63,166 nt of DNA from Calothrix sp. FI2-JRJ7 (GTDB lineage: Bacteria > Cyanobacteriota > Cyanobacteriia > Cyanobacteriales > Nostocaceae). A program made the translations under genes and the position numbers. The stretch covers positions 1-63,166 of the forward strand of contig JAHHGX010000077.1 of the NCBI GenBank assembly GCA_019359675.1. The letters are read 5' to 3'. Shown piece by piece: positions 30,003 to 58,890 of this stretch; position 1 is the stretch's first letter; every line of letters starts with the position of its first letter. A model generated the notes under the pieces. The model was not told the DNA's origin and made no database searches. It worked only from the letters and a program-made list of their open reading frames with translations.

Positions 30003-30262
30003 TTAACGAATTAAGTCGAAGGAGATATCTGTTACACCAGTAATATTGCTATTACGATCCATTTCATCGAGCAATGTATTAACAACCCAGTTGAGGAGGT
30101 TTAAGCCACCTTGGTAGCCAAGGGTTGCATAACGGTGTAAGTGGTGACGGTCAAACAAAGGATAACCAATGCGAACCATAGGAATTTTGGTGTCACGCCA
30201 CAAGTACTTACCGTAGGAGTTACCAATGAAGAAGTCAACAGGCTCGGTGAACAACAGTGAAC
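30003..30262 (-). CDS. nifK: NifK, 3' (C-terminal) part
   Basis: C-terminal 84 or so residues of the nitrogenase MoFe beta subunit: LFTEPVDFFIGNSYGKYL, then IRVGYPLF-type sequence (MVRIGYPLFDRHHLHRY), then the C-terminal FDLIR. No start codon of its own is plausible. The reading frame joins the 5' part (58887-60166) across a GTTC-N-CT core to give 511 residues in all. Separated from it by the 28.6-kb element. Confidence 0.95.
30256..30262. other. Left element attachment core
   Basis: On the nifK coding strand this reads GTTCACT, and the opposite end (58884-58890) reads GTTCCCT. The shared GTTC-N-CT is short, as usual for serine recombinases, which need only a central dinucleotide identity. 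Joining at GTTC restores the nifK frame exactly. Confidence 0.75.
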
Positions 30263-30324
30263 CAATGCGCCGACAATCAGATAATATTGGTTAATATTAA
30301 AATATTCCTCTCCAAAATTGATAT

Positions 30325-31869
30325 ATGGATGTTTGGGCTTACGCGCGCGTATCGACAGACGAACAAGCCGAAGATGAAGGCGCCCTAATTAAGCAGATGC
30401 GTCGATTGCGTACTGCTGGCGCCACCAAGATATATTACGATGTTGAAAGTCGTACCAGCGATAAACGCAAAGGACTTACCCAGTTAATCGAAGACATTAA
30501 TGCATTAGTACCAGGCAAAGTCTCAAAATTATTATTTATTAGAATAGACCGTTTAACATCCTCATCAATGACCTTTTATCGTTTGATGGATGCCTTAAAA
30601 AAGAAAAGCATACAGCCAACAGCGATAGATGAACCATTTGATATATCAAGTATAGGCGGAGAATTAACAATAGATGTACGACTAGCAGCGAGTAAATATG
30701 AGGTAAAAATGTTAGGTATGCGAGTAAAAAAAGAACGAGATACCCGCAAAGCAAATAAAAAACCTCACTGGAACACTCCACTAGGATATGCAATAGAAAA
30801 CGACAAATATATAATAGATAATCAACTTTGTGTTTGTTTAATCGAGGCAAAGCAAGAATTAACAAGAGCGCAACTAATGCGATTAGTATTCGACACATTC
30901 TTAGAAGTAGGCACAATATCACAAACCGTTAGAAAATTGCACGATACATTTGGCATTCAAGCCAACGCCACACCAAAAGACAGCAACAGTCAAATTAATT
31001 TATTAAACGAAGAAGACGAAATAATATTTGAAAATATCAACAAAACCCGTAGTACTAGCTTACGTTATCCCCACACAGGATTAAAATGGTCAGTTTCTGG
31101 TTTACGTTCCATATTAGTAAACCCCATTTACGCAGGAGGAACACTCTACGACACAGTAGTTCGTCCCAAAGGACATCGTAAACCCTTCGACGAATGGGAA
31201 ATAGCATGGGGAACTCACACCGATGAATCCATTATTACCCGTGAAGAACACGAACAAATCAAAGCCATAATTCGCGGCAACCGCAATAACCGCTGGGCAA
31301 ACGAGCAAAAATACACAAACCCATTCGCCAACTTAGTAAAATGCGCTCATTGTGGCGCCGCATATAGTCGTCAGTGTAAAAAACTAGTCAAGAAAAAGAA
31401 CTTCGTCAGACATCACTACCAATGCAGCTTTTACCGAACAGGCGCCTGTACTAACGGACGCATGATATCCTCAGACGAACTAGAAAAACAAGTTATAAAT
31501 TACATCATTGGTGAAGCCGAACGACTCGCCACCATAGTCGAACAAGAAGTAACAATAACAGGAGAATCTCCACAAGTAAAAACACTTAGAGCATCATTAA
31601 CCACCCTCGAAGCATTACCATCCAACCCCGCAATAGAAACAGCCAAACAAGACATTAGAATGCAGATAGCAGAAGCAATTGCAACCACAAACAACAATTC
31701 TAAACAATATCTAATAGCCAAAGAACGAGTAACACGCGCATTTGCCAACCCAAAATACTGGGAAGGACTAGAAACCGAAGACAAAAGAACCCTACTACAA
31801 GGCTGTGTAAAAAAAATAATCGTAGATGGTAGCCTAGTCACAACAGTAGAACTACTACACCTAAATTAA
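30325..31869 (+). CDS. Large serine recombinase (XisF-like)
   Basis: 514 aa. The resolvase domain opens with YARVSTDEQ, whose Ser10 is the nucleophile; the catalytic Arg region is FIRIDRLTSSSM. A recombinase domain follows (PLGYAIENDKY, then SVSGLRSILVNPIYAGG), then a zinc ribbon (CAHCG and CSFYRTGACTNG) and a coiled-coil tail. Same size class as Anabaena XisF, which excises the fdxN element. It is the obvious enzyme for excising this element. XisH and XisI, partners of XisF, were not found here. It reads inward from the left end. Confidence 0.92.
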   Translation: MDVWAYARVSTDEQAEDEGALIKQMRRLRTAGATKIYYDVESRTSDKRKGLTQLIEDINALVPGKVSKLLFIRIDRLTSSSMTFYRLMDALKKKSIQPTAIDEPFDISSIGGELTIDVRLAASKYEVKMLGMRVKKERDTRKANKKPHWNTPLGYAIENDKYIIDNQLCVCLIEAKQELTRAQLMRLVFDTFLEVGTISQTVRKLHDTFGIQANATPKDSNSQINLLNEEDEIIFENINKTRSTSLRYPHTGLKWSVSGLRSILVNPIYAGGTLYDTVVRPKGHRKPFDEWEIAWGTHTDESIITREEHEQIKAIIRGNRNNRWANEQKYTNPFANLVKCAHCGAAYSRQCKKLVKKKNFVRHHYQCSFYRTGACTNGRMISSDELEKQVINYIIGEAERLATIVEQEVTITGESPQVKTLRASLTTLEALPSNPAIETAKQDIRMQIAEAIATTNNNSKQYLIAKERVTRAFANPKYWEGLETEDKRTLLQGCVKKIIVDGSLVTTVELLHLN

Positions 31870-32291
31870 GTAGAACATCTTGTGGAACAGGCATCCCTGC
31901 CTGTCACATATTTAAGAGGGCGGGCAAGGATGCCCACCCCACAAAAAAATTTTAGGTCATCAACAAAAATCATCTAGCATATATATAGTCAAAACTGTCA
32001 TTCTGAACGTAGTGAAGAATCTCTACAACTTTGATACTAAAGCAGTCACCAACTAACAGAGTAATACCAGATTCTGAACGTAGTGAAGAATCTCTACAAC
32101 TTTGATACTGATGTAATCGAGTTTAACGACTTCATTGCAGCAGCATTTGTAAGTGAAGAATCTCTACAACTTTGATACTGATGTAATCGGTGAGTTGTTA
32201 GGTCAAAACTGTCATTCTGAGAATCTCTACTGGTCTTGCTGCGTGAAAATGGCGCCAAATACCCATAGACACTGCATAGCTTTTCCAACAA
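31870..32291. repeat. Intergenic region with GAATCTCTACAACTTTGATAC direct repeats
   Basis: After a GGCATCCCTGCC / GGGCAAGGATGCCC hairpin (31885-31945), three direct copies of a roughly 40-bp unit (GTGAAGAATCTCTACAAC, TTTGATACTGATGTAATCG) lie at about 32010, 32085 and 32152. Units with AACGTAGTGAAG are dispersed in the window (also 62106). No gene. Confidence 0.6.
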
Positions 32292-32541: not shown

Positions 32542-33731
32542 GTTTAAACTTTAAATAATCCCTTCAAGGGATTGAAACATGAAAATAAATATAATGACTA
32601 ATATTTCAACCGCGTTTAAACTTTAAATAATCCCTTCAAGGGATTGAAACTTGAGCAAGACATTACGTTTTATATTGAAGCAAGTTTAAACTTTAAATAA
32701 TCCCTTCAAGGGATTGAAACTAAACAGTTAGCGACAGAAGAGAATTTAAGAAAGGTTTAAACTTTAAATAATCCCTTCAAGGGATTGAAACTTAGTTTGC
32801 AACTCTCGTACTTTTGGAGTATCGGTTTAAACTTTAAATAATCCCTTCAAGGGATTGAAACAGTATGGCAACAACTATTCCCAAACTTCGCAGCAGGTTT
32901 AAACTTTAAATAATCCCTTCAAGGGATTGAAACGACCTATTACTAATGGTTTGCCTTGGAAAAGCCCATTACGTTTAAACTTTAAATAATCCCTTCAAGG
33001 GATTGAAACCCACTTACCATTACGAGAATCAAACACTTTCTTACGTTTAAACTTTAAATAATCCCTTCAAGGGATTGAAACTTGATTTATATTTCTAGGT
33101 TCCCATTCCTGATGTTTAAACTTTAAATAATCCCTTCAAGGGATTGAAATACGAGCATCGTTGTTAAATAATCTTCTCAAACATGTTTAAACTTTAAATA
33201 ATCCCTTCAAGGGATTGAAACTCAGGAGATATTTGTACTACAGTTTTCTGGATGTTTGAAGTTTAAACTTTAAATAATCCCTTCAAGGGATTGAAACGAT
33301 TCATAAAGAAGAAGCCTGCTATTGGCACTACGTTTAAACTTTAAATAATCCCTTCAAGGGATTGAAACTTGATGGTTGATTGCCGATAAAAAACAAGCAT
33401 CATTAAGTTTAAACTTTAAATAATCCCTTCAAGGGATTGAAACTAATAATTGCTTGCACTTGTGCTTTCACTTCTGTTTAAACTTTAAATAATCCCTTCA
33501 AGGGATTGAAACTTGGAGTAATCAAAACTCTATACAATCCATCATCGTAGTTTAAACTTTAAATAATCCCTTCAAGGGATTGAAACTTTCTTCACTAATC
33601 CTTAAGCCCGCAAAATCGCCCCTAGTTTAAACTTTAAATAATCCCTTCAAGGGATTGAAACAAGCCTAAAGAAGCTGGAGGAAAAGCAACAGATGTTTAA
33701 ACTTTAAATAATCCCTTCAAGGGATTGGAAC
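32542..33731 (+). CRISPR. CRISPR array 1, 17 repeats and 16 spacers
   Basis: Repeats are 37 bp, opening GTTTAAACTTTAAATAATCC and closing CTTCAAGGGATTGAAAC. The core AATCCCTT-C-AAGGGATT forms a hairpin, and the GATTGAAAC end is the usual 8-nt crRNA handle region of type I. Spacers are 32 to 39 bp. The ninth repeat ends GAAAT and the last ends GGAAC, decay expected at the trailer end. Repeats differ from array 2 at five positions. Cas6 at 50302 is the likely processing enzyme. No spacer was seen to match elsewhere in the window, though this was not searched exhaustively. Confidence 0.98.
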
Positions 33732-33951: not shown

Positions 33952-34788
33952 TTATAGAAAATTTAAGCTTTGAACTTCTTGGACTGTTAATGAAAGAATT
34001 TGTGCAATTTGTTCGATGCTCATTCCTGTTTGTAGTAGCTGAGATGCTGCGTTTAATCTTGCTTGCCGCTCAGTATCCGCACGTTGCTGTTCGGCATCTG
34101 CGCGTTGTTGTTTGGCATTAGCACGTTGCTGTTCAGCGTCAGCACGTTGTTGTTCAGCGTCAGCACGTTGTTGTTCGGCATCTGCGCGTTGTTGTTCACG
34201 TTGGTATAATTCGTCGAGTTCTACGGGAGTTACGAACTTGCGACCGTCTGGACGGTAAATTTCTAGTGTTGTTGGCGCCAACACAAATTTGATTTGCAAA
34301 CGTGGACTCACCCAATTGTTTATATTCTTAATGGGTTTGAGAGTTTTGTTTGAGCGTAGCCAGCCTTTTAAAATATTTTTATCTGGGTCATATATATAGT
34401 ATTCTTCGGCGCCGTATTTTTGGTAAAAGTCGAACTTGTCGTCCATTTCTTGTTTTCTGTTGCCAGGTGACAATACTTCAAATATTACCTGTGGTGCTAT
34501 ATTACCTTCGCGCGCTTGAACATATGAACCTCGATGACCTTTTGGTCTGCCGAATACTACCATTGCATCAGGGGCATATTTTGTATCAATATCACCTGCT
34601 ATTGGATACCAAAATAAATCTCCAGCAACAAATACATCTGGGTTTGAAGCAAATAGTATCTCTAAACCTTCTTTGATAAGTACAATCCAAATAAACTGTA
34701 ACGTGTTTTGTGCCATCGGTTCACCGTCGGTTTCTGGGTAAATAACCAAGTCGTCGGCGGCATCAAATTCTGTAACTTGTCGTACCAT
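33952..34788 (-). CDS. Uma2-family (DUF820) putative endonuclease
   Basis: 278 aa. PD-(D/E)XK fold of the Uma2 type, abundant in cyanobacteria: DVFVAGDLFWYPI, PDAMVVFG, then the active-site strand VIFEVLSPGNRKQEM and the helix DKFDFYQKYGAEEYYIYDP. The C-terminal 80 aa are a coiled coil of seven-residue tandem units (QQRADAE, QQRANAK and so on), followed by a helix-turn-helix-like end (GMSIEQIAQILSLTVQEV). Function of the family is unproven. It lies in the defence region of the element. Confidence 0.85.
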   Translation of the reverse strand: MVRQVTEFDAADDLVIYPETDGEPMAQNTLQFIWIVLIKEGLEILFASNPDVFVAGDLFWYPIAGDIDTKYAPDAMVVFGRPKGHRGSYVQAREGNIAPQVIFEVLSPGNRKQEMDDKFDFYQKYGAEEYYIYDPDKNILKGWLRSNKTLKPIKNINNWVSPRLQIKFVLAPTTLEIYRPDGRKFVTPVELDELYQREQQRADAEQQRADAEQQRADAEQQRANAKQQRADAEQQRADTERQARLNAASQLLQTGMSIEQIAQILSLTVQEVQSLNFL

Positions 34789-34937
34789 GTTGCAGCACCT
34801 CTAAGTTTATTGAGGTTATTACCCCTCAGTTTAAATCGTAGATGGGTAGATTTCCACCGTTGTTATCAGTAATAAATTACTATACAAAGATTCAGTACTA
34901 GTTTGCAGCTTGTGACACATTTTCAACTGTACAGGTT

Positions 34938-35801
34938 TTAAATATCGTAGTGCTGACAAAGTGATTTGAGTTTTTCCTTGAAACGCGACCTTACGCTCTC
35001 AGGCGCCACAATTTCGCAGTCTTCAGCATATTTCATTACATCGCGAATTAACCAAAACGGATGCGGTGCCTTTTTGACGACATGACGCACACCGTCTATA
35101 ACTTCGTTGCTTATATCTTTATTTATAGATGCGGCTTTTGCTTCGTATGCTTTGACCATTCCTTTGTAAAAGTGTAAGTACACTTCTAAATAATCTAAGC
35201 CCTGATGGCGCCAGTGCCCACTCATTGGCAAGATAGTCTTGATTCTATCGAGACGTAAACAACGATTGTGTATAAGTTCTGGGTACTCAGGATTTGGAAT
35301 ATCGTCAGTCTCATCGCACCATATATACAGATAAAAGCCCCTGTTATCTTCAAAGGCTACTTCAGCATAACGAACCGTATACGCTAAATCTTCACCCTGA
35401 GCATTTGTATAAAGCAATTGGAACGGTTGCTGGTTTTGAAGATGTTGTTCAACAATAACTCGCCATGCTTCGGTTGGTTGGCTAATTGTTTGTAGTACTT
35501 GCTGACGCATCGGCGCCTCTAGTTCGCCACGTTCAAGCAATAATCTTGAAAGCGTTTGTGCTTCACCTGTGTTACCAGAGTCATTGAGAAAGCGAATACC
35601 TTGGAGTAAGGCGCCGATTTGAGTCGAGTTAAACGTAAAGGGCTTACCAACTTCGTATGTTTTCTCAGCAATAGCGACGAGTAAACCTGAAATACTGGGA
35701 GACTTTCCCCAGAAAATGTTTAAGCGACGGGCTATTTCCTCTAATTGTTCTTTAGTCCCATCAGGTATTGACAGTGTGATTGTGTCCTTTTTTCTGGGCA
35801 T
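34938..35801 (-). CDS. WYL-domain transcriptional regulator
   Basis: 287 aa. An N-terminal basic DNA-binding segment of ribbon-helix-helix type (TITLSIPDGTKEQLEEIAR) is followed by a WYL domain around IVEQHLQNQQPFQLLYTN to HNRCLRLDRIKTILPM and a C-terminal WCX-like region ending FKEKLKSLCQHYDI. In Synechocystis the WYL protein Sll7009 sits beside a type I-D locus and represses crRNA accumulation. This protein is in the equivalent position, between array 1 and the I-D cas genes, so the same job is likely. It is divergent from the toxin-antitoxin pair. Confidence 0.85.
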   Translation of the reverse strand: MPRKKDTITLSIPDGTKEQLEEIARRLNIFWGKSPSISGLLVAIAEKTYEVGKPFTFNSTQIGALLQGIRFLNDSGNTGEAQTLSRLLLERGELEAPMRQQVLQTISQPTEAWRVIVEQHLQNQQPFQLLYTNAQGEDLAYTVRYAEVAFEDNRGFYLYIWCDETDDIPNPEYPELIHNRCLRLDRIKTILPMSGHWRHQGLDYLEVYLHFYKGMVKAYEAKAASINKDISNEVIDGVRHVVKKAPHPFWLIRDVMKYAEDCEIVAPESVRSRFKEKLKSLCQHYDI

Positions 35802-35981: not shown

Positions 35982-36239
35982 ATGTCCCAAGATGACTTAC
36001 TATCAAGAATATCCATCGACCCAAACATCTGCTTTGGTACACCCTGCATTCGCGGGCATCGCATCTGGGTATCGATGATTTTAGATTACTTGGCAGGAGG
36101 TGAAACCATAGAAGCAATTTTAGAAGAATATCCCGGTATAGAACGAGAGGATATTTTAGCTTGTATCGCTTATGGTGCCGAAATGGCGCGCGGCGCTTTT
36201 GTTGAACTCCCTCTTAATAAAAAAAAGGAACCAGCGTGA
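35982..36239 (+). CDS. DUF433 antitoxin
   Basis: 85 aa. Typical DUF433: RISIDPNICFGTPCIRGHRI followed by VSMILDYLAGGETIEAILEEYP and a terminal IACIAYGAEMARG helix. DUF433 proteins are winged-helix antitoxins paired with PIN-like DUF5615 toxins, and the next gene overlaps by 4 bp (GTGA), the normal arrangement. Confidence 0.9.
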   Translation: MSQDDLLSRISIDPNICFGTPCIRGHRIWVSMILDYLAGGETIEAILEEYPGIEREDILACIAYGAEMARGAFVELPLNKKKEPA

Positions 36240-36613
36240 ACATTAAAGTAGATGAACATCTTGGTAACTTGAGGGTTGTTACGTGGTTGCGTGCTGCGGG
36301 ACATAATGTAGCAACAGTAAGGGAACAAAGTTTAACTTCAGCACCAGACGAAGAGTTAATAGCTGTTTGTAGCTCGGAGGGTCGATGCTTAATTACTTGC
36401 AATAGAGGTTTTAGTAATCGCTTAAAGTATAATCCTTCCAACTATGCAGGAATCGTAGTAATTCGTTTACCTTCCCGTCATGACTTTAATGATTTGCAAG
36501 AAGCTATTGATACTTTAATTGCCGCATTAGAAACTACTGAAGTAACAGGAAAGCTATGGATTATTAGAAACGGTAGCACTCAAGAATACGAACCTATCGA
36601 TTCAGATACATGA
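36236..36613 (+). CDS. DUF5615 PIN-like toxin
   Basis: 125 aa from a GTG start overlapping the antitoxin stop. Matches DUF5615: IKVDEHLGNLRVVTWLRAAGHNV, APDEELIAVCSSEGRCLIT, then SNYAGIVVIRLP. The usual acidic strand end reads LITCNRGFSN here, where Asp is common in relatives, so nuclease activity may be weakened. A plasmid-addiction role would stabilise the element in vegetative cells; that role is inferred. Confidence 0.85.
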   Translation: MNIKVDEHLGNLRVVTWLRAAGHNVATVREQSLTSAPDEELIAVCSSEGRCLITCNRGFSNRLKYNPSNYAGIVVIRLPSRHDFNDLQEAIDTLIAALETTEVTGKLWIIRNGSTQEYEPIDSDT

Positions 36614-36818: not shown

Positions 36819-36895
36819 AAACCTTGAAGATATAAAATAAAGTTTACTCCAAATTGGGGGCAAAATTTCCAGCAAAATGCAGTTAGGTTTTGAAT

Positions 36896-37333
36896 ATGAT
36901 AAATACTCATCAAGTCTCTTTACAAACAAAACTAGAAACAATAGTCCAGTGTATGGATATACTCAAGCGATATGAGAACGTATCACTTCAAGAATATCTA
37001 AGTGATTACGAGACTCGATCCGTTGTAGAGAGGGCTATACAGTCAATAATTCTAATAGCAATACGCATAAGCTGTTCCATATTGTCACACCTTAATCTCG
37101 AAAAATCGGCTATTAGTTCCGATGAGGCATTTATTGAACTTGGTAAATGTGGTGTAATCGCTTCAGAACTTGCAAAACAACTGGCGCCAACAGTTGGTTT
37201 AGCAAACCATCTTACTTATGAATATGACTGTATACACCATAACAGAGTGTTTGGAGCAATTAAATCAACTCTCCGACAATATTCACTGTATGTGCAGCAA
37301 ATAAACACTTACCTCACTTCTACGTTAGCATAA
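36896..37333 (+). CDS. HepT-like HEPN protein with altered catalytic motif
   Basis: 145 aa from ATG 36896. HEPN (DUF86/HepT) family by SLQEYLSDYETRSVVERAIQ, the helix around DEAFIELGKCGVI, and HHNRVFGAIKSTLRQY. The RNase motif of HepT, R-x4-6-H-x-Y, should fall at GLRNRLVHxYD. Here it reads GLANHLTYEYD, so the Arg and His are replaced and toxin activity is probably lost. It precedes a broken MNT gene by 38 bp, the usual module order. Confidence 0.75.
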   Translation: MINTHQVSLQTKLETIVQCMDILKRYENVSLQEYLSDYETRSVVERAIQSIILIAIRISCSILSHLNLEKSAISSDEAFIELGKCGVIASELAKQLAPTVGLANHLTYEYDCIHHNRVFGAIKSTLRQYSLYVQQINTYLTSTLA

Positions 37334-38584: not shown

Positions 38585-38686
38585 GACAAAGTAACTCAAA
38601 AAAAAGTAGTCACTTAGGCAGTACAAGTGATACATGTACTAGTCAAATTTGCTACATAAATCAATATTGAATTTAGGTATTTGCAT

Positions 38687-41368
38687 ATGGTATTGCGTAC
38701 CAGCCTTTTGAACCGTGCCCCGAAAAGTTTAGAAGAGCGCTATTTTAGTCAGGTTCGTCCCAAGCTGTATGAACTTCACGGATGCCATGAGCAGTATGGT
38801 GTTAGGAAAGGGACGACTCTGGCAGAGCATCTCGACTCAGCTTGTCAGTTTATCTTGACAGTTAGTCGGATAGGAGGAGTGCCTGAAGATAAAAGACCTC
38901 CTCTGTTAGCCACGGCTGCGGTTCATGATTTGAATAAGCTAGATGAGCGAGAGCGCAACGTTAAAACTCTTGCTAGAAATCGAGATTTTTTACGTGAACA
39001 GCTTGAAAAAGCTTGTGTAGATGGCTTTGTAATTACAGACGAAGATTATGAATTGGTCAGAAAGCTTATTGAGCGTCATTCTGGTCATCATGTTAGCGAT
39101 GGAGCAATATTTTTACCCGAAGACCCAAATATTAAAAGATGGGCAGCAATGCTGACAGCAGCAGATTTATTTGATTTGGGTATTCCAGATGCCAAGCGTT
39201 TTCGGAAGTTGGAAACTGAGTTGACTGTTGCGTTTAATAGACCATGCAATCTCTTTCGTATCCGTTTAGCAGAAGATAGGGGTTACATGACTGCGCTGTT
39301 ACTCGGCGCCTGTGAAGAGGTGTTACAAAGCTATAAAATGCATCCTATTGCGATATTTCCAGATGGTGAACTTTTTGAGGGAGATATACCGCAGGATGAT
39401 TTAGTGCAGCAAATAGCAGCAACATGGCAAAGTAAAATTGACCAAGTTTTTGGCAACAATATTCAACAACTTGTTAGACCAACTAAAGATGGTATTAAAG
39501 TTGCTCAACAAGCTATTCAACAAAATCTGGATGAGGTGTTAATCAATGTTAACGCTCTTTTAGAGAAGAAAAAAGCCGGATATAAACAAGATAAGATTAG
39601 TAAAGATATTACTAAATGGAGTGAAGATGCAGGCGCCGATGCGTTAAAAAATGCAACTCAACTTGGCTTGATACCTGTGAGTAGTGCTGAAGAGTTTGCT
39701 ATTGCGGAAGCATTAAAAGCTGCATATTTGAGTTATCGTGAAGCTAAATTAAGCCCTAAAGACGCATGGGATAAAATTGCTGCTCATACAGGTATATCTC
39801 CAGAGCAACTTACTGCACTTGAACAATTTAACGGCCAATATGGGCGCCCATTATTTGCGGCAAAAGCTGTAAGTACGGGAATGGAAGGTATACAAGCAGC
39901 GTTGCGCGAGTCTTTGGAGTTAAGGAAAGGTAATACACAACAGTCAGACCTGAGTGAAGCTTCTGAAGAAATGGTTGCTGCTGTTAGTCGTATGTTGAAT
40001 TTACCATCTGCAAGTAAAGTTGACGGTCACTCATATTTAGAAGCTTACATTGAGGCGCCTAATCAAAGATGCTCTTTAGGTTCAAATTCTAATGATATTA
40101 ACGAACTAATTTCTGCTAACATGCCTCCAGGCACAAAAGTACAAGCCTTTTCAAATCGCTTACCTGGTGGAACTAGTTCAGAACCAAAACGACAAGCTGA
40201 CTCAATTGCAGCTTTAGCATATCATTTAATGACAGTCGGCGCCAACTTTCCTGCCGTTAAAAAGCAAGAGCTACTATATTTACACTTCTCATTACCTAAA
40301 GGTTCATCACCGGAATTACTGAGAATATGGCGTGGTTTTCTAGAACGTGCCGCTGAAACTAATGCCGAAGGTGGTACAGTCACAGTTGATGAACTACAGC
40401 TTTATCGAGATAATATTATAGAATTTAAATCTAATAAAGTTGTTGGTTTCGCATTTCCCAAGCGTCCAGACTTTGTACATAATAATGTAATTATTCCTTT
40501 AGTTTGGGGAGATGCAAATGCTTCGGTAGCTTTGCTCAAATCGCTACGTTTAGGTTTAGAATTGTCTTTATCTTTAGAGTTTGGTTTTCCCTTTAGCATC
40601 GGAGGAAACTTAGAAATAGAGTTATCTGATAATATCTATGGTCGAGTTGAAGGAATACCAGCAGCACTGCAACCTTTATTAAAGACAGGACAATACAACC
40701 GTCAAGAAGCAGAGAAAATTCTCGAACGACTGAGAAATATAGGTAAACTTGCTACATCTGTTGCCAGTATTCAAAAAGTAGATGATTGTTCATACGACTT
40801 AGCACGTGCGTGTGCAAGACCATTAGATTTATATTACGTCATACTACGCTGGGTATTACGCGAACAAGATGAGCCAAATTTAAATTTAACCTGGAGTCGA
40901 ATTCGTGAACCATTAAATAATTTACTGGAGAGTCTTATGCCGAATGATAATTCACTTTTGACCAAATATTTAAAAGAAGCAGCCAAAATAGCTGCTGAAG
41001 CAAACTTAAGGGGAAGTTCCTTCAAGCGCACATCTTTATCCGAACCGTTTACAGCATTTACCTCAGCAGTGCGTTCGCAGAAAACCTATATGGACTTAGA
41101 GTTTATGTTTGCCGTACTCGCGCAGCAATACCATACACGTTTAGACCGTATTCGTGAACATGGTGTAGGTAATACAAAATTTGAACAAATTAAGTCTTTT
41201 TACAAGGTATTACAAAATCTCTATGAACAAGTATATCAATCCCGTCCAGAAAAACTGCTTTCCGACCAAGACAAATTAGAGGCAGCATATTTATTTTTCT
41301 ATCAAGAAGCTTATCAACAGCTTCCCAAGAAAAAGAATGAAGAAGAGACAGTTGAAACAAATATATAG
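38687..41368 (+). CDS. csc3: Type I-D large subunit Cas10d (Csc3) with HD nuclease domain
   Basis: 893 aa from ATG 38687. In subtype I-D the HD nuclease is on Cas10d, not Cas3. The HD region spans LAEHLDSACQFIL to HDLNKLDERER near residue 86 and IERHSGHH near 133. The middle and C-terminal parts match Csc3, and no classical GGDD cyclase motif is evident, as usual for Cas10d. It is the signature gene of I-D and leads the operon csc3-csc2-csc1-cas3-cas4. It contains an internal translation start for Cas11d. Confidence 0.92.
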   Translation: MVLRTSLLNRAPKSLEERYFSQVRPKLYELHGCHEQYGVRKGTTLAEHLDSACQFILTVSRIGGVPEDKRPPLLATAAVHDLNKLDERERNVKTLARNRDFLREQLEKACVDGFVITDEDYELVRKLIERHSGHHVSDGAIFLPEDPNIKRWAAMLTAADLFDLGIPDAKRFRKLETELTVAFNRPCNLFRIRLAEDRGYMTALLLGACEEVLQSYKMHPIAIFPDGELFEGDIPQDDLVQQIAATWQSKIDQVFGNNIQQLVRPTKDGIKVAQQAIQQNLDEVLINVNALLEKKKAGYKQDKISKDITKWSEDAGADALKNATQLGLIPVSSAEEFAIAEALKAAYLSYREAKLSPKDAWDKIAAHTGISPEQLTALEQFNGQYGRPLFAAKAVSTGMEGIQAALRESLELRKGNTQQSDLSEASEEMVAAVSRMLNLPSASKVDGHSYLEAYIEAPNQRCSLGSNSNDINELISANMPPGTKVQAFSNRLPGGTSSEPKRQADSIAALAYHLMTVGANFPAVKKQELLYLHFSLPKGSSPELLRIWRGFLERAAETNAEGGTVTVDELQLYRDNIIEFKSNKVVGFAFPKRPDFVHNNVIIPLVWGDANASVALLKSLRLGLELSLSLEFGFPFSIGGNLEIELSDNIYGRVEGIPAALQPLLKTGQYNRQEAEKILERLRNIGKLATSVASIQKVDDCSYDLARACARPLDLYYVILRWVLREQDEPNLNLTWSRIREPLNNLLESLMPNDNSLLTKYLKEAAKIAAEANLRGSSFKRTSLSEPFTAFTSAVRSQKTYMDLEFMFAVLAQQYHTRLDRIREHGVGNTKFEQIKSFYKVLQNLYEQVYQSRPEKLLSDQDKLEAAYLFFYQEAYQQLPKKKNEEETVETNI
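40937..41368 (+). CDS. cas11d: Probable internally translated small subunit Cas11d
   Basis: An in-frame ATG at codon 751 of csc3 (MPNDNSLLTKYLKEAAK) is preceded by GGAG with a 6-nt spacer, a good Shine-Dalgarno inside the gene. Translation from here gives a 143-aa helical protein. In type I-D systems the small subunit Cas11d is made by internal initiation within cas10d, and this start is at the right place and size. The site is seen directly; use is inferred. Confidence 0.7.
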   Translation: MPNDNSLLTKYLKEAAKIAAEANLRGSSFKRTSLSEPFTAFTSAVRSQKTYMDLEFMFAVLAQQYHTRLDRIREHGVGNTKFEQIKSFYKVLQNLYEQVYQSRPEKLLSDQDKLEAAYLFFYQEAYQQLPKKKNEEETVETNI

Positions 41369-45570: not shown

Positions 45571-45573
45571 CAT

Positions 45574-50301: not shown

Positions 50302-51129
50302 ATGCCTCACAGTTTAGTTCTCAACCTACTACCTCAGTCAAGCATCTATCCACAATTTTTAACTGGTAGACATTATCATGCTTTATTTCTCAACCTTGTT
50401 AGTTCAGTAGATAAGAGTTTAGGCGATATCCTTCATGATACAACCACAGATAAAGCTTTTACGCTTTCCCCCATACAAATACACCGTAGACAACCAGCAC
50501 TTAAAAACAATATTCTACAATGGCAGCACCAAGAACCTATACTACCTGAGACACCTTGCTGGTGGCGCCTGTCTTTACTTGATGACACTTTATTTGGTAA
50601 GCTCACACAGCTTTGGTTAAATATAAATCCTGAAAAAGCTTGGCATTTAGGTTCTGCTGACTTGTTTATTACTAGTATCCAAGTTACACCTCAGTCAAAC
50701 CAACCTTGGGCAAACGCCTGTACTTATGCCCAACTATTTGAACAAGCAAGTGGCACCGAACGAAGTATCAATTTTACATTTGCCACACCTACAGCTTTTC
50801 GGCAAGGAAACTTCGATACAGCATTACCCAGTAAAGAATCAGTATTCAAAAGTTTACTACAACGCTGGAACAAATATAGTGGCATAGAAATATCGCCTGA
50901 AATAATAGATTGCATTTTTCCCAGCTTTTTCAACATCCGCACAGAAATAGCGAGTGACTCGCGCAGTAAATTTATAGGTTGTGTTGGGCAAGTAAGCTAT
51001 AAAATTATGGGAGAAGTCGAACCAGAAGTCATCAAACAAATTAACGCTATAGCTGATTTTGCCTTATACGCAGGAGTCGGAAGGAAAACACCAATGGGAA
51101 TGGGAATGGTACGCAGGCAAACTAATTAG
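50302..51129 (+). CDS. cas6: CRISPR pre-crRNA endoribonuclease Cas6
   Basis: 275 aa. Cleaves pre-crRNA in the repeat stem. N-terminal RAMP segment LTGRHYHALFLNLV contains candidate catalytic His residues; the C-terminal glycine-rich loop YAGVGRKTPMGMGMVR is characteristic. An additional family segment is SINFTFATPTAFRQGN. It lies apart from the main cas operon, beyond array 2 and the DUF1016 gene, next to a dead array of another repeat type, so its origin may differ from the I-D set. Confidence 0.9.
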   Translation: MPHSLVLNLLPQSSIYPQFLTGRHYHALFLNLVSSVDKSLGDILHDTTTDKAFTLSPIQIHRRQPALKNNILQWQHQEPILPETPCWWRLSLLDDTLFGKLTQLWLNINPEKAWHLGSADLFITSIQVTPQSNQPWANACTYAQLFEQASGTERSINFTFATPTAFRQGNFDTALPSKESVFKSLLQRWNKYSGIEISPEIIDCIFPSFFNIRTEIASDSRSKFIGCVGQVSYKIMGEVEPEVIKQINAIADFALYAGVGRKTPMGMGMVRRQTN

Positions 51130-51153: not shown

Positions 51154-51249
51154 ATAATAATCCCTTTCAGGGATTGAAACGTTTGATTGCAAAGTAGCTT
51201 TTATGTTTGCTTATTGCAATTTCTAATAATTCTTTTCAGGGATTGAGGC
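51154..51249 (+). CRISPR. Vestigial two-repeat CRISPR beside cas6
   Basis: The partial repeat TAATAATCCCTTTCAGGGAT-TGAAAC ends at 51180; a second degenerate copy at 51216-51249 opens GCAATTTCTAATAATT and ends GATTGAGGC. They enclose a 35-bp spacer. The GCAATTTCTAATAAT start is common in cyanobacterial repeats and distinct from arrays 1 and 2. A residual array that was possibly once served by the adjacent cas6. Confidence 0.7.
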
Positions 51250-51505
51250 ATTTTCAAAAATGTTTAGGAGCTACAGATGCCAATACTGCTAGGTTAAGCT
51301 AAAAATATGAAAATTTGTAGGTTGGGTTGAGGAATGAAACCCAACGTTTATAAGGTTTTGTTGGGTTCCACTTCGTTCCACCGCTTTGATTGCCTATAGG
51401 TACCGGGTGATATGTTCGTTTATAAGGTTTTGTTGGGTTCCACTTCGTTCCACCCAACCTACGATTATTCTTATCCGAGCAGTGTTGTGACAGATGCTTC
51501 ACTTT
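51250..51505. repeat. Direct repeat pair before the acetyltransferase
   Basis: Two direct copies containing GTTTATAAGGTTTTGTTGGG and TTCCACTTCGTTCCACC lie at about 51345-51401 and 51417-51456. Dispersed intergenic repeat; no gene. Confidence 0.6.
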
Positions 51506-52009
51506 TCATTTAATTTGTAGAGACATATAGTCTATGTCAAAATATTGATTGTTGAGTTTGTACGCCATTTTCTCTATTCCATATGTTTTAAAGCCAAATG
51601 ATAAATAAAGTTGTTTTGCTGGTAAATTATTTGTTACGACATCGAGTAATAGTATTTCTATATCGTTAATAGCTTTTGCTTTTTCAATTAGTTCAGTTAG
51701 TAGTAATTCACCTATACCTTGGCGCCGATATTCTTGTTTGACGTACATGCTACGAATGTAGGCTTTATGCTTTGTTTTTATTCTTGATTCTTGATGAAAT
51801 GCTACTATTGCAATTAGTTTTTTATTTTCATAGCAGCCTAATATAAAGTTGTTGTTATCTACTGGTATTTTATCCCTAAAGTCGTCTATTGTTTTGATTG
51901 CTTCTTCTTGATGCATTGTGCCAAATGAGTCTGGGTTATTATGTAAGGATTCTAGTCTGATTTGACTGTAATCTTCTGCGTCATGTTTTGTTAGTCTTTT
52001 TATTATCAT
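51506..52009 (-). CDS. GNAT-family N-acetyltransferase
   Basis: 167 aa. Acetyl-CoA-binding motif A: YIRSMYVKQEYRRQGIGELLL with the R-R-x-x-G-I-G loop. Motif B is around NLPAKQLYLSFGFKTYGIE. Substrate unknown. Alone on the minus strand in the cargo region. Intact length for the family. Confidence 0.85.
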   Translation of the reverse strand: MIIKRLTKHDAEDYSQIRLESLHNNPDSFGTMHQEEAIKTIDDFRDKIPVDNNNFILGCYENKKLIAIVAFHQESRIKTKHKAYIRSMYVKQEYRRQGIGELLLTELIEKAKAINDIEILLLDVVTNNLPAKQLYLSFGFKTYGIEKMAYKLNNQYFDIDYMSLQIK

Positions 52010-52127: not shown

Positions 52128-52677
52128 TTATATAGATTCGCCTATTAGGGTGAATGCTGCCCAATCTTCGGGGTTGGGATATTGTTTCATGGTTGCCGTT
52201 TCGACGTACTACCGCTAAAGCTTTGTTACAATATTCAAGCGCGCGCTTAGAATCACCACTATCTCCATAAGTAAGTCCTACATTAGATAATATACGCGCT
52301 TCTAAACCAGTATCACCTGTCGCTTTTGCAACCTTTAAACCCTGTTGATAATAACTAATAGCTTGCTACGCTTGATTCAAATCAGCATATATATTACCAA
52401 TATTATTGAGTGCCTTACCTTCAAATGCTTTGTCCTTATTTTTACGAGCAATACTTAAAGCTTCTTCAAACTTTTTCAAGGCAGCTTGCAACTGATTTGT
52501 ATCACGTAATTTTTCACCTTGTTTTATCAGCTTATCAGCTTGATTGTTGCTATCACTACTCGTTTGTGCCACAGCTTGTGATATGTTATGAGGCTCAACC
52601 GAAAATACGCTTAAAGGCGCCGAAACAGCCAGCAATATTAAGAACGATTGCACACGAATAGGGAGCATAATAGGCAA
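52128..52677 (-). pseudogene. TPR-CHAT protein, nonsense mutation and internal deletion
   Basis: Starts with a signal-peptide-like segment (LPIRVQSFLILLAVSAPLSV), then TPR units (LRDTNQLQAALKKFEEALSI, GKALNNIGNIYADLNQA). A TAG replaces a Gln codon after NQA, but the same frame resumes with QAISYYQQGLKVAKATGDTG and ILSNVGLTYGDSGD. After ALAVVRR the frame changes to YPNPEDWAAFTLIGESI, the C-terminal end of a CHAT caspase-like domain. So most TPRs and the CHAT catalytic part are deleted. A decayed member of a family often linked with defence or cell death. Confidence 0.8.
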
Positions 52678-53036
52678 CGGATATAACGGATGTAACGGAT
52701 AGTTTATCTTACAAAAGTAAGTATCATTATCAGGATACGTATTGTTTTAACAAATCATTTATCCGTTAGAGGTTGTTGGAAAAGTCTAAAATTATACTGT
52801 AGCTTTGTAAAATCCCCCCAACCCCCCTTAATAAGGGGGCTAGAAACGCTCTTTTCCCCCCTTATTAAGGGGGCTAGAAACGCTCTTTTCCCCCCTTATT
52901 AAGGGGGGCTAGAAACGCTCTTTTCCCCCCTTATTAAGGGGGGCTAGGGGGGATTAAACTCAGGATTATGTGTTAAATATTACTTTTCAAACAGCCTCTT
53001 ACATCCGTTGTATCCGTTGCTAACTGACCTATTATT
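52678..53036. repeat. Tandem palindromic repeats
   Basis: Positions 52812-52963 hold four palindromes of the CCCCCTTATTAAGGGGG type separated by CTAGAAACGCTCTTTT, a tandem array with period about 35 bp. On either side are ACGGATGTAACGGAT (52688) and TTACATCCGTTGTATCCGTT (53000) arms. No gene. Confidence 0.8.
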
Positions 53037-53660: not shown

Positions 53661-53683
53661 GAAATTGCTAGAGGGAAGCATTA

Positions 53684-54061
53684 ATGGCTAAGTCAAATGG
53701 GGCAAAAAGCGGAACATCCGTGGAGTCTGAGATTTCAGACGCAGAAGACCTGGCGCCAGTTAAAGATTCGTCTGAACTAGTAGAGGGCGCCCAAGATATT
53801 GACGAAATCTTAAACTCGCTAAAAGCTTTACTGGGTGCGTTAGAAAAACTCCAAAAAGCTCGTCAAGAAGTAGGCGATATCAAACCTTTAGTTGGGCGAA
53901 TGCTCGATGGAGAAATGCTTGGAGGAGAAGAACTTGAGCAACTCAAGGCAGGTGTAAGCGGTCTTTCTAAGCTTGTTCGTTCTTATAGCGACCATCAAGC
54001 AGCACTCGCTAAAGCACAACCTGCAAGAAACCTGTTAGATCAAGTTATCAAAGAAGGATAA
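53684..54061 (+). CDS. Hypothetical acidic helical protein, 125 aa
   Basis: Begins MAKSNGAKSGTSVESEISDA with a polar N-terminus, then long amphipathic helices (IDEILNSLKALLGALEKLQK, LKAGVSGLSKLVRSYSDHQA). Likely coiled-coil or helical bundle. Two GGCGCC sites lie in the first third. It precedes the EF-G gene by 540 bp. No family recognised. Confidence 0.6.
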   Translation: MAKSNGAKSGTSVESEISDAEDLAPVKDSSELVEGAQDIDEILNSLKALLGALEKLQKARQEVGDIKPLVGRMLDGEMLGGEELEQLKAGVSGLSKLVRSYSDHQAALAKAQPARNLLDQVIKEG

Positions 54062-54599: not shown

Positions 54600-56690
54600 A
54601 TGAAAGACCTCACTCGTTATCGGAATATCGGTATCTTCGCCCACGTAGACGCTGGTAAAACCACCACAACAGAAAGAATCCTGAAACTGACAGGAAAAAT
54701 CCACAAAATTGGTGAGGTGCATGAAGGTGCGGCGACGACCGACTTCATGGAACAAGAACAAGAGCGAGGCATTACGATTCAATCTGCTGCTACCACCTGT
54801 TTTTGGAACGATCACCAATTCAATATTATTGATACCCCTGGACACGTTGACTTTACCATTGAAGTTTACCGTTCGCTGAAAGTGCTTGATGGTGGTGTCG
54901 GTGTATTTTGCGCTAGTGGTGGTGTAGAACCTCAATCTGAAACCAACTGGCGTTATGCCAATGACTCTAAGGTCGCTCGCGTCGTTTACATTAACAAACT
55001 TGACCGTATTGGCGCCGATTTTTACCGAGTTGTCAAGCAAATTAATGATGTCCTAGCAGCGAAACCGTTGGTGATGGTACTACCAATTGGTACAGAGAAC
55101 GATTTTGTAGGCGTGGTAGATTTATTAACCCGTAAAGCATGGGTATGGGATGATTCCGGCGACCCAATGAGCTACGAAATCAAAGAAGTTCCCGCCGAAA
55201 TGAAAGATGATGTCGAAAAGTACCGCGAGATGCTGATTGAGACAGCTGTCGAGCAAGACGACGAATTGATGGAAAAATATTTAGAAGGCGAAGAACTTTC
55301 CATCGACGAAATTAAGCGTTGTATTCGTAAGGGCACTATTAATCTGTCCTTCTTCCCCACCTATTGCGGTTCTTCGTTTAAAAACAAGGGTGTGCAGTTA
55401 GTACTCGATGCTGTTGTTGACTACTTGCCCAACCCAACAGAAGTAAAACCACAACCAGAAGTAGATTTAGAAGGTAATGAAACTGGCGAATTTGCTATTG
55501 TAGACCCAACGAAACCGTTGCGGGCACTGGCGTTCAAAATTATGGATGACCGTTTCGGCGCCCTCACCTTTACCCGCCTTTACTCTGGTGTATTAAATAA
55601 GGGTGATACAATTCTCAATACCGCAACAGGTAAAACCGAACGTATTAGCCGTTTGGTTGAGATGCACGCTAACGACCGTCAAGAAATTGATTCCGCTCAA
55701 GCTGGGGACATTGTAGCTATTGTAGGGATGAAAAACGTCCAAACCGGACACACCCTTTGCGACCCCAAAGCTCCCGCAACCTTAGAACCAATGGTGTTCC
55801 CAGAGCCAGTTATTTCCATCTCGGTGACACCTACCAAGAAAGGTACCTCCGAAAAAATGGGGGTTGCACTCGGTAAAATGGTACAGGAAGATCCATCATT
55901 CCGCGTCGAAACTGATTCCGAAAGTGGCGAAACCATCATTAAAGGGATGGGTGAGTTACATTTGGATATTAAAGTTGACATTCTTAGACGTACCCACGGT
56001 GTTGAAGTTGAAGTTGGTAAACCTCAAGTTGCTTACCGTGAGTCTGTTACCAAGCGCGTTGAAGATGGCTACGTCCACAAGAAACAATCTGGTGGTTCTG
56101 GTCAATACGCTAAAATCGATTACATTGTTGAACCCGGTGAACCTGGTAGTGGTTTCCAATTCGAGACGAAGGTAACTGGTGGTAGCGTACCTAGAGAATA
56201 CTGGCCTGCAGTTCAAAAAGGTTTTGCAAGCAGTATCGATAAAGGTGTATTAGCAGGATTCCCTTGCGTAGATTTGAAATTTACCTTGGTTGATGGTGGT
56301 TTCCACCCTGTTGACTCATCAGCTATTGCTTTTGAAATCGCTGCTAAAGCTGCTTATCGTCAAACCTTGCCTAAAGCTTCTCCTCAATTGCTTGAACCCA
56401 TCATGAAAGTCGATGTGTTTACACCTGAAGATTACATGGGTGATGCAATTGGTGACTTAAACCGTCGTCGTGGACTCATTAAATCGCAAGAAACAGGCCC
56501 TACTGGCGCCCGTATTAAAGCGGATGTACCATTAAGCGAAATGTTTGGTTACATTGGTGACCTGCGAACCATGACTTCCGGTCGTGGTCAGTTTTCAATG
56601 GAATTTTCTCATTACGCACCATGTCCTGCGAACGTAGCAGAGACCGTAATTAAAGAAACCAAAGAACGCGAAGCTGCTGCTGCGAAATAG
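54600..56690 (+). CDS. Translation elongation factor G paralogue
   Basis: 696 aa, full length. GTPase that translocates tRNA and mRNA on the ribosome. G1 [15 protein letters not shown], switch [13 protein letters not shown]3 DTPGHVDF, G4 NKLD, then domains II to V ending with [20 protein letters not shown]. All catalytic residues including the switch His of PGHVD are present. It differs from the main cyanobacterial EF-G (N-terminus [20 protein letters not shown]) and, from memory, resembles a second EF-G lineage common in gammaproteobacteria and some cyanobacteria. An intact EF-G on an excisable element is unusual. Confidence 0.93.
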
Positions 56691-56830: not shown

Positions 56831-56837
56831 AAGTGTT

Positions 56838-58598
56838 ATGACCGATATAACCGATATTAACGACATATCAACAGATAGCTCCTTAGTCGATCCAGAAAAT
56901 GACTTGCTAGGTCATGCCAGCTTTGCTAAGTATCTAGCAGACAGCATTTGCGAAATGAACTTTCCTGAAGGTTTCATAATTGGAATTTACGGTTCTTGGA
57001 ACTCTGGCAAATCAACACTATTAAACTTTATAGGTCATTATCTTCAGCAAAAGCCAGAGGACGAGCAACCAATTATTGTTCCTTTTAATCCCTGGCTATT
57101 TTCTGGACACCAGAATATTACAAGACGCTTTTTTGAACAATTACAAAACGTTTTAAGCAAAGAAAAAGCCGTGCCAAGAGGTATAAGAAAGACACTTGCT
57201 GATTTTGCCGGAATTATTTCAGAAATTCCTTTACCTTATGCTCAAACTGGCAAGGCATTAGTAACATTATTAGATGATAAAGACAAGGAAGCTTCGCAAT
57301 TTAAAGAAGAAGTAGAAAAGACGCTTGCAAAGCAGGATAAACGCATAGTTGTAACAGTTGATGATATAGATAGGTTGCCTGGTGAGGATATTAAGCAGCT
57401 ATTTCGGATATTTAAAGCTATTCCAAATTTTTCTAACGTTGTTTATGTTTTAGCCTTTAATAAAGAAGCTGTAATGGAAACAATTACAGAAACCGATACA
57501 GTATCCAAAGAATCATACTTACAACAAATTATTCAAGCTGAGTTTGAGTTACCTACTCCAAGTAAAACCTTACTTCGCAAGCTGTTTTTTAAAAAACTGA
57601 ATAGAGTATTTGCTGACATACCAAAAGAAGAATTTAATCAAGCACGCTGGAGTAGTATTTACTTCCAAGGAATAGACCATTTTATTAATAACATACCTGC
57701 CATTAGTCGTTTAACTAACACTTTAACAGTTACATATCCAGCAGTAAAAGGCGAAGTCAATCCAATTGATTTTATTGCTATTGAGTGTTTGCGAATCTTT
57801 TGCCCAGCCATATATGACATAATCTACCAAAATCCTTATGCTTTCGCAGGTGAGGTCAACACTACAACAGACGAATTGAAAAATTTACTTAATACCTGGA
57901 TTGCTCAACTACCCCCCGAAGACAAGCAACCTGTACAAAATCTTCTCATGCAGCTTTTTCCAAAATTAAAACATGTTTGGAGTAATAGCTCTCCCTCGGA
58001 GAAAGAGTCTGAATCGCATAAGCAACTACGTGTGTGTAGTTTAGAAATATTTCCAACCTACTTCCGTCTAGCCTTATCAGCATACGAATTATCTAACACT
58101 CAAATAAAAGCTATGCTTGCTTTGGCTTACGATACAGAAAGGTTTAAAGAACATCTAATAGAACTTGTTAAGCAAAAACGTACTGAAGGTATCGCACAAA
58201 CTAGCATTTTTCTAGAACAGCTTCAAAGCACCGCTCAAGAAATTCCTGCAAATGCCATTCCCTCGGTTGTGGAAGCTTTATTTGATGCCAGCGAAGAATT
58301 CTTGTTGGGTCAAGAAGATGAATATAATAATGACATTTTCGATTTGAGCAACGAAGTTATAGTTAGTCGTTATATCTCACAACTATTGCGTCGAATTGAA
58401 GAACCACAACGATTTGAATTGTTAAAAAAAGCAATTAGTCAAAGTAAAGCATTACCAATAATTAATCAACAAATAGCAACAGTAAAAGAACAGCAAACTC
58501 AGTCTAGTTCCGATGAGGACTTAAATGAGGAAAGCCTTCTGAGCGCAGAACACCTTGAAGAACTTGAACAAATCGATCCCCCCCTAACCCCCCCTTAA
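56838..58598 (+). CDS. KAP-family P-loop NTPase
   Basis: 586 aa. Walker A IIGIYGSWNSGKSTLLNF near residue 50 and Walker B RIVVTVDDIDRLPGEDI near 170. KAP-specific segments are PFNPWLFSGH and FSNVVYVLAFNKEAV. KAP NTPases often have membrane helices inserted in the P-loop domain; none is obvious here. Several KAP proteins are anti-phage factors, fitting the island. The frame ends inside a C-run palindrome (tail IDPPLTPP), so its original stop may have been altered by the repeat. Confidence 0.85.
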   Translation: MTDITDINDISTDSSLVDPENDLLGHASFAKYLADSICEMNFPEGFIIGIYGSWNSGKSTLLNFIGHYLQQKPEDEQPIIVPFNPWLFSGHQNITRRFFEQLQNVLSKEKAVPRGIRKTLADFAGIISEIPLPYAQTGKALVTLLDDKDKEASQFKEEVEKTLAKQDKRIVVTVDDIDRLPGEDIKQLFRIFKAIPNFSNVVYVLAFNKEAVMETITETDTVSKESYLQQIIQAEFELPTPSKTLLRKLFFKKLNRVFADIPKEEFNQARWSSIYFQGIDHFINNIPAISRLTNTLTVTYPAVKGEVNPIDFIAIECLRIFCPAIYDIIYQNPYAFAGEVNTTTDELKNLLNTWIAQLPPEDKQPVQNLLMQLFPKLKHVWSNSSPSEKESESHKQLRVCSLEIFPTYFRLALSAYELSNTQIKAMLALAYDTERFKEHLIELVKQKRTEGIAQTSIFLEQLQSTAQEIPANAIPSVVEALFDASEEFLLGQEDEYNNDIFDLSNEVIVSRYISQLLRRIEEPQRFELLKKAISQSKALPIINQQIATVKEQQTQSSSDEDLNEESLLSAEHLEELEQIDPPLTPP

Positions 58599-58862
58599 TA
58601 AGGCTACGGTGTACACACATCTCTCATCGCGGGTTAAATAGGCGGGAAAGAAACGAATGGTTCTATCCCAAACCCGATATTTTACGTTTCTGCTTATCAA
58701 TAAAAGAGAGTTATTGATAATGAAGTCGGCGCCGCTTAATGCTTATCTAGTAAGGCTTGAGTCATACTAGACGAGCTTTTTAAGACTTGTGTGTACACCG
58801 TAGCCTTAATAAGGGGGGGAACAAGATTTAAAGCCGCCCGCGTGGAAGGGGGGTTGGGGATC
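58575..58862. repeat. C-run/G-run palindromes at the element's right edge
   Basis: A CCTTAATAAGG palindrome of the dispersed family, split by the 200-bp MITE-like insertion, and a second unit with CGCGTGGAAGG near 58840. They lie within 30 bp of the nifK junction. Confidence 0.75.
58604..58803. mobile_element. 200-bp MITE-like insertion with perfect inverted ends
   Basis: Ends CTACGGTGTACACACA and its exact inverse (16 bp) bound a 200-bp segment. It is flanked by CCTTAATAAGG at 58593-58603 and 58804-58814, an 11-bp duplication (or 9 bp if part of the arms is counted). It therefore inserted into a pre-existing C-run/G-run palindrome. No transposase inside; probably an internally deleted insertion sequence mobilised in trans. 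Confidence 0.85.
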
Positions 58863-58883
58863 AAGCTTGATACCCAGCACATT

Positions 58884-58890
58884 AGGGAAC
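58884..58890. other. Right element attachment core
   Basis: Reads GTTCCCT on the nifK coding strand, matching GTTCACT at the left end except for one base. Recombination here would leave HFRS-LLFTEP in NifK, the conserved family sequence. Confidence 0.75.

Follow-up and report, generated by a model that had tools for sequence, protein, structure and literature searches.

A Type I-D CRISPR-Cas Locus within a Probable Excision Element of nifK in Calothrix sp. FI2-JRJ7, with Differing Cassettes in Related Strains

Introduction

Programmed loss of DNA in the terminal cells of bacteria is known for nitrogenase and sporulation genes, and little is known of the roles of the cargo that is lost. Here, we describe an insert that splits nifK, the gene of a nitrogenase subunit, in Calothrix sp. 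FI2-JRJ7 and that carries a type I-D CRISPR-Cas locus (CRISPR, clustered regularly interspaced short palindromic repeats). It lies on contig JAHHGX010000077.1 (C77), the 63,166 nucleotides of which were analyzed whole and are referred to as the window, within an 8.66-Mb assembly of 91 contigs. The overall account, which we regard as probable, is that of an excisable nifK element, long resident in its clade, whose I-D locus would be lost from the heterocyst chromosome and whose CRISPR cassettes have been exchanged.

The closest described systems are the nifK elements surveyed by Hilton et al. 2016 (PMC4874684), which interrupt the same gene and encode an XisF-related recombinase, and among which those of Calothrix PCC 7103 and PCC 7102 were named as carrying a paralog of elongation factor G (EF-G). 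The word "CRISPR" is absent from the main text of that survey, the supplements of which lay outside the check. The fdxN element of Nostoc/Anabaena PCC 7120 is alike in its recombinase, that of FI2-JRJ7 passing the XisF cut-off, and unlike in its target gene and in XisH/XisI, not found among the 24 open reading frames (ORFs) scanned in the FI2-JRJ7 element. The XisF assignment applies to the recombinase alone, and the insert is not classed as an fdxN element. Outside cyanobacteria, the skin element (sigK) and the SP-beta prophage (spsM) of Bacillus subtilis (PMC4191935) likewise divide a gene that is made whole when they are excised in a terminal cell, and they stay in place in the lineage cell; these differ in that the terminal cell is the mother cell and not a heterocyst.

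The cargo has the same components as other cyanobacterial I-D systems (Cas10d, Csc2, Csc1, Cas3d, Cas6d, Cas4, Cas1, Cas2, and arrays) and is unlike them in its position within an insert that would be developmentally excisable. In Anabaena sp. 90, the I-D locus is on plasmid B, and the nif operon and its elements are on chromosome I (PMC3542288). Arrays and nif elements are tabulated separately in PMC5987646, and the accessible part of PMC8987985 holds nothing on CRISPR in nif elements. No published report of CRISPR-Cas in a nif element was found among the matches listed by a literature search that left most subscription journals outside, by which novelty is not proved. What is described here as new is the CRISPR cargo of these nifK elements, with cassettes that differ between strains.

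The Interrupted nifK Gene and Its CRISPR-Cas Cargo

The two parts of nifK have the same orientation and are separated by about 28.6 kb. An imperfect 7-bp direct repeat, GTTC(C/A)CT, is present at both ends (58884–58890 and 30256–30262), and the limits of 30256 and 58890 proposed in a first-pass annotation of this DNA coincide with its outer bases. Joining the halves at the repeat gives a 511-codon NifK in an open frame with no stop (...WHFRSLLFTEPVD...); at 482 of 511 residues (94%), this product is identical to the uninterrupted NifK that the congener G426 encodes. The first-pass annotation had allowed for an intact nifK elsewhere; no second copy above the cut-off was found in the whole assembly, and a look-alike pair on contig C85 was rejected, its members scoring as NifE/NifN (NifE below its own cut-off). 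HetR is encoded in the genome, and the recombinase next to the C-terminal part of nifK exceeds the equivalog cut-off of NCBIfam recomb_XisF (522.6 bits versus 375). Judged from its sequence, the insert is an interruption element of the excisable type, and we infer from known elements that it would be excised in heterocysts.

Profile searches bear out the earlier description of the cargo as a serine recombinase, an I-D cas set, two arrays, and several defense genes, with two corrections: cas1 occupies two ORFs, and possible remains of a third array lie beside cas6. The Cas10d, Csc2, Csc1, and Cas3d set, together with arrays adjoining the cas genes, places the locus in subtype I-D. Rfam CRISPR-DR5 is passed by 31 of the 32 repeats of arrays 1 and 2; across the whole genome, the repeat pattern was matched 30 times, each time inside the nifK element. 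Two degenerate repeats at about 51155–51250 look like the remains of the third array, whose counterpart has 7 repeats in Calothrix HK-06 and 21 in PCC 7716. The element has one cas6, the product of which is 95–99% identical in amino acids to that of HK-06, PCC 7103, PCC 7716, and, over 200 residues, PCC 7102; the HK-06, PCC 7103, and PCC 7102 elements have a second, array-side cas6. The cas1 frameshift is seen relative to cas1 of PCC 7716, and a real mutation and an assembly error are both possible. Array 1 (32542–33731) is also 68% identical to part of Nostoc phage N1 (KU234532.1), a similarity that is probably due to the repeats.

Elements at the Same Codon in Other Genomes

Orthologs of the recombinase with at least 71% identity were found in 25 of 118 genomes of the family, the next match being at 52%, and each of the 25 lies within 250 bases of the C-terminal part of nifK. 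A scan of named genomes gave 33 recombinase loci, 32 of them with this part of nifK in the stretch. The genome searches located 28 elements, of which 21, from 21 genomes, were compared, and seven on broken contigs (G398, G450, G390, G452, G399, G441, and G366) were left out. Nineteen of the 21 were read end to end with co-oriented halves; the other two (G434 and G356) have inverted halves, may be incomplete, and recall the inverted halves reported for some assemblies (PMC4874684).

In all 21 elements nifK is broken at the identical codon, and inverted arms (about AATGYGYTNNCTATCAGGT) occur at the inner ends of every element, always in one register; for 15 of the 21, equally good arms arose in no more than 10 of 1000 shuffles. 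Chance or mis-assembly is an unlikely origin because the elements of 21 genomes interrupt nifK at one codon. An assembly artefact was also considered for the clade described below and set aside, since its six assemblies agree and the titles of two of them (PCC 7716 and NIES-4105) describe them as complete or nearly so. The assembly of G441 has an interrupted C-terminal part besides an intact nifK; the two were considered as forms before and after excision, and the 82–90% identity of their matching stretches points to two genes or strains.

CRISPR cargo was found in one clade, made up of FI2-JRJ7, Calothrix HK-06, PCC 7103, and NIES-4105 (same genus), together with PCC 7102 and PCC 7716, which were assigned to it on name and sequence only. 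Cas genes and arrays are present in all six clade elements (213,813 bases in total). The 15 non-clade elements, 13 of which were read end to end and total 541,508 bases, gave no array and no match to the clade Cas1, Cas2, Cas3, Cas4, or effectors in a scan by tblastn with clade proteins, an array being defined by three exact 23-mers, in which other CRISPR types could be missed. Among the 33 named loci, which reach at most about 10 kb into the element, five have cas genes, and these are the five named clade strains; within that stretch, the other 28 have no array, Cas1, or effector match. The proposal that the element spreads CRISPR systems by way of nifK is not supported by the 15 non-clade elements and these 28 loci.

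The nearest outside relative compared, NIES-4101 (recombinase 82%, NifK 94%), has an 8.6-kb element that lacks CRISPR; its I-D locus is at another chromosomal site. At least one further nifK element, that of the non-clade genome G394 (L075:529-8941), carries what reads as defense-like cargo with no full CRISPR system: a Cas6-like gene with a fused HTH domain, adjoined by a DpdE-like helicase and a PDC-M02A/B-like pair. The finding is broader than the first-pass annotation had it, and amounts, as far as the compared sequences tell, to a nifK element of the developmental kind with a slot for CRISPR that is filled in six of six clade strains.

A Shared Frame with Differing Cassettes

The recombinase (90–98% amino acid identity), EF-G (96–100%), the ATPase (82–94%), and a 125-residue protein are kept in all six clade elements, and the effector cassette between the WYL regulator and cas4 varies. 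Cassette A (I-D) is that of FI2-JRJ7; cassette B (I-D) is shared by HK-06, PCC 7103, and PCC 7102, mutually 95–99% identical; cassette C (I-D), in PCC 7716, is 45–83% identical to B; and cassette D, in NIES-4105, is of type I-B, with Cas8b, Cas7b, and Cas5b. Csc2 and Csc1 of FI2-JRJ7 share 26–36% identity with their counterparts in the other I-D elements. Between FI2-JRJ7 and PCC 7716, Cas4, Cas1, and Cas2 are 94–98% identical in amino acids and the WYL regulator 95%, the effectors are unlike, and the DNA match resumes at 45573, the start of cas4.

In a Cas1 tree of 58 rows, the Cas1 proteins of the six elements stand in three places; well-supported branches force three label changes, and a single change suffices in 0% of bootstrap trees. 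Because of these label changes, the six elements do not hold one unchanged ancestral Cas1 lineage, and a single CRISPR founder kept unchanged is incompatible with the tree, in which gains and losses are indistinguishable. The element Cas1 of NIES-4105 groups with the chromosomal Cas1 of NIES-4101 and others, to which it is 87–89% identical. Most likely, the cassettes have been replaced repeatedly from the chromosomal CRISPR loci of the family, a direction that we infer.

As for the element itself, recombinase, EF-G, ATPase, and nifK agree in placing NIES-4105 farthest from the other five by identity, and the finer branching within the six has weak support and differs between genes. Vertical descent of the element within the clade is likely. 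By these comparisons, its residence looks old and its CRISPR slot re-stocked, and it does not look like a vehicle seen spreading CRISPR. Another history, to which we give an even chance, is that nif elements are tolerated sites where cargo gathers and that CRISPR landed in the clade ancestor as a hitch-hiker and stayed, with ordinary recombination later and with no immune consequence of excision. It agrees with the restriction of CRISPR-Cas to one clade among 21 elements, with the frequency of CRISPR in the family (Csc2 in 97 and Cas1 in 108 of 118 genomes), with element sizes of 4 to 116 kb among those read end to end, and with the other defense-like genes of G394. Alone, however, it leaves unexplained that the slot is occupied in six of six strains, given the three places of Cas1 and the four effector cassettes.

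Selection, Spacers, and Targets

In 20 gene-pair comparisons, dN/dS was 0.03–0.24, with 0.03–0.14 for cas genes, 0.10–0.12 for the recombinase, and 0.049 for EF-G, values that point to purifying selection on the gene pairs compared. None of 284 spacers from the six elements was common to two strains, sharing being defined as at least 80% of the length at more than 88% identity; the set included 27 of the 30 FI2-JRJ7 spacers, and the pattern missed variant repeats. This holds despite 86–98% DNA identity of recombinase, EF-G, ATPase, and nifK among the six, and it fits continued spacer turnover.

Searched against 160 sequence records, the 284 spacers gave 387 matches, all in array context and none outside. 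Nine apparent cross-strain matches were rejected, since the record in which they fell (L128) is HK-06 itself. When arrays were compared with phages and plasmids, matches of 60–80% fell in array-like stretches and were read as repeat matches. The cores of 4 of the 30 FI2-JRJ7 spacers, compared with viral contigs, gave one match of 17–18 nucleotides that did not extend along the spacer and was attributed to chance.

These results bear on another explanation, in which CRISPR-Cas, the PifA-like ATPase, and the nucleases are weapons by which a degenerate mobile element excludes rival elements and phages from the cell lineage. Several defense-like genes do occur together, and the serine recombinase is of a mobile-element type; set against this are the absence of any spacer match outside arrays in the records searched and the lack of replication, transfer, or virion families among the 24 element ORFs scanned, and we judge this explanation unlikely.

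Excision and Immunity in the Heterocyst

During vegetative division, the element would stay in nifK and the I-D genes would be inherited with it. Upon heterocyst differentiation, the XisF-family recombinase would recombine the two att half-sites, the 28.6-kb insert would exit as a circle, nifK would be read in a single frame, and both arrays would leave the chromosome together with the I-D cas genes. By analogy with known elements, the I-D locus is probably dropped from the heterocyst chromosome, and I-D activity would be found in vegetative cells and lost or diluted in heterocysts. Within the clade, the central CRISPR slot would stay filled while effector and adaptation cassettes are exchanged. 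The excision of nifD and fdxN elements has been confirmed through RNA-seq in Nostoc sp. N6 (PMC5987646).

Several observations weigh against this account. As to excision, the direct repeat is only 7 bp long and imperfect, and neither an excision product nor a circle was seen. The arms of the clade elements are weak (12–16 of 24 matches, equaled by 4 to 233 of 1000 shuffles), those of FI2-JRJ7 having 13 of 24 matches with 56 of 1000 shuffles as good. XisH and XisI, which are required with XisF in Nostoc 7120 (PMC4874684), were not found in a Pfam scan confined to 24 ORFs of the element. The adaptation genes are not all intact, cas1 being frameshifted in the assembly; the other five clade elements each have cas1 as a single full-length ORF. 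The element of FI2-JRJ7 might on these grounds be a fossil, its att sites and cas1 decaying and nifK no longer restored, and the weak inner arms, the cas1 frameshift, the decayed third array, and a truncated TPR-CHAT gene speak for it. We consider it very improbable, as the selection on the recombinase noted above, the open joined frame with its 94% identity to an intact homolog, and the split nifK being the only nifK found in the assembly all stand against it.

As to immunity, the dN/dS set excludes the FI2-JRJ7 effectors, which have no close relative among the elements; no protospacers were found for either FI2-JRJ7 array among phages and plasmids, nor for one array each of NIES-4105, HK-06, and PCC 7102 among phages; and the three Cas1 label changes could equal one gain and two losses. 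A second, I-A-like locus is also present on contig C80 (L094), with Cas8a, Cas5a, Cas7, Cas6, and Cas1, to which tblastn adds Cas4 and Cas2; it has two arrays of a different repeat, and its Cas3 is split over two ORFs; contig C85 (L095) holds a decayed I-D remnant. The claim that each heterocyst deletes its adaptive immune system can thus be kept for the I-D locus and its 30 repeat matches, which would leave the chromosome, and is not supported for the C80 locus, which would remain: because of it, the FI2-JRJ7 heterocyst would lose one adaptive system and not necessarily all. The idea of cell-type immunity is strongest in HK-06 because the element Cas1 is there the sole one among the matches listed (assembly, E up to 1e-10).

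Excision of the nifD element makes a circle that may persist, and the circle excised from nifK may persist in heterocysts as well. A clean loss is also opposed by the proposal that EF-G paralogs may help to make proteins encoded on the excised element (PMC4874684). The excised circle might then be transcribed, heterocysts would keep I-D immunity, and EF-G and the ATPase would serve the circle. Of the cargo proteins, EF-G is conserved best across the six elements, as such a role would have it; by contrast, vegetative cells of Anabaena 7120 had detectable CYP110, which is encoded on its nifD element, and its heterocysts did not (PMC1079853), and we regard retained immunity as possible, with the balance tilted against it.

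Features of the Element and Its Surroundings

The features of the insert are collected in Table 1. The DUF433/DUF5615 pair is one that we take to be toxin-antitoxin-like. Rfam at gathering scores gave CRISPR repeats alone in 29900–60200, and no tRNA was found in the window. Between 30200 and 39000, there were 20 promoter-like sites against 27.4 in shuffles and 11 terminator-like sites against 6.0, and these counts were not used.

Table 1. Positions of the nifK parts and of the cargo of the nifK element in the window
Feature	Position	Strand	Basis and remarks
nifK C-terminal part (...LFTEPVD... to stop)	30003–30262	-	TIGR01286 positions 426–516; att half-site 30256–30262
Large serine recombinase, XisF family, 514 aa	30325–31869	+	Pfam Resolvase/Recombinase/Zn_ribbon
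CRISPR array 1, 17 repeats, 16 spacers, DR5-type	32542–33731	+	Rfam DR5
Uma2-family putative nuclease	33952–34788	-	Pfam Uma2; in 5/6 clade elements
WYL/WCX regulator adjoining cas genes	34938–35801	-	Pfam WCX, PADLOC WYL
DUF433/DUF5615 pair	35982–36613	+	Family match
HepT-like ribonuclease	36890–37333	+	Family match
cas10d	38681–41368	+	PADLOC Cas10_Id, 1657 bits
csc2 (cas7d)	41489–42538	+	Pfam Csc2, 368 bits; PADLOC
csc1 (cas5d)	42542–43285	+	PADLOC Cas5d, E 2.4e-94
cas3d helicase	43231–45570	+	PADLOC Cas3d, 1335 bits
cas4	45574–46158	+	PADLOC and domain match
cas1, two ORFs	46326–47332	+	1-bp frameshift near 46907
cas2	47335–47607	+	PADLOC and domain match
CRISPR array 2, 15 repeats, 14 spacers	48165–49218	+	Rfam DR5
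YhcG/DUF1016 PD-(D/E)XK nuclease	49212–50147	+	Pfam YhcG_C, DUF1016_N; PADLOC PDC-S02; true start may be later
cas6d	50302–51129	+	PADLOC Cas6d, 495 bits
GNAT acetyltransferase	51506–52009	-	Family match
125-aa protein	53684–54061	+	No family found; in 6/6 clade elements
EF-G paralog	54600–56690	+	NCBIfam EF-G; 96–100% aa among six elements
KAP-family P-loop ATPase, PifA-like	56838–58598	+	Pfam KAP_NTPase; PADLOC PifA, E 1.3e-85; 82–94% aa among six
nifK N-terminal part (to ...WHFRSL)	58884–60166	-	TIGR01286 positions 1–433, 742 bits; att half-site 58884–58890

The gene of a TPR-CHAT protein (about 1042 residues; L088:6663-9791) is full length in the PCC 7716, PCC 7102, and NIES-4105 elements and truncated in that of FI2-JRJ7 (52366–52677). 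A C/G-rich hairpin unit of about 34 nucleotides follows at 52822–52942 in three tandem copies, and a MITE-like unit with inverted ends TAAGGCTACGGTGTACACAC (58599–58810) lies between the ATPase gene and the nifK junction. Relatives of the cargo also occur near other recombinase genes: on the element side, an EF-G of 95% identity (L045) and an ATPase relative (55%; L034); on the other side of the nifK C-terminal part, and so outside the element, an EF-G of 87% identity (L037). Beyond the N-terminal part of nifK, nifD appears to be interrupted as well, as a stretch resembling the NifD C-terminus by eye lies at about 60336–60500 on the minus strand, adjoined by an integrase-like ORF (60677–61981, plus strand; Pfam Phage_integrase below the cut-off), and this nifD element extends to the end of the window (60336–63166).

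Meaning for Heterocyst-Forming Strains

In the elements described here, the cargo that would be lost is a recognizable immune system, located in the same place in six strains, with working parts that differ. This raises the testable question of whether adaptive immunity is unequal between the two cell types of a filament, and whether such a difference is a cost, a benefit, or neutral; the difference itself is plausible and unproven. More tentatively, and with more doubt than confidence on our part, immunity in this clade would be germline-like, a selected CRISPR slot being discarded at terminal differentiation, so that heterocysts are without it and cassettes are re-stocked at that position. 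If true, the heterocysts of strains such as HK-06 would possibly be without any adaptive immunity. Because heterocysts are terminal cells, spacers acquired in them would not be heritable, which makes these filaments a natural place for asking if immune memory in bacteria is handled by evolution as a trait of the germline.

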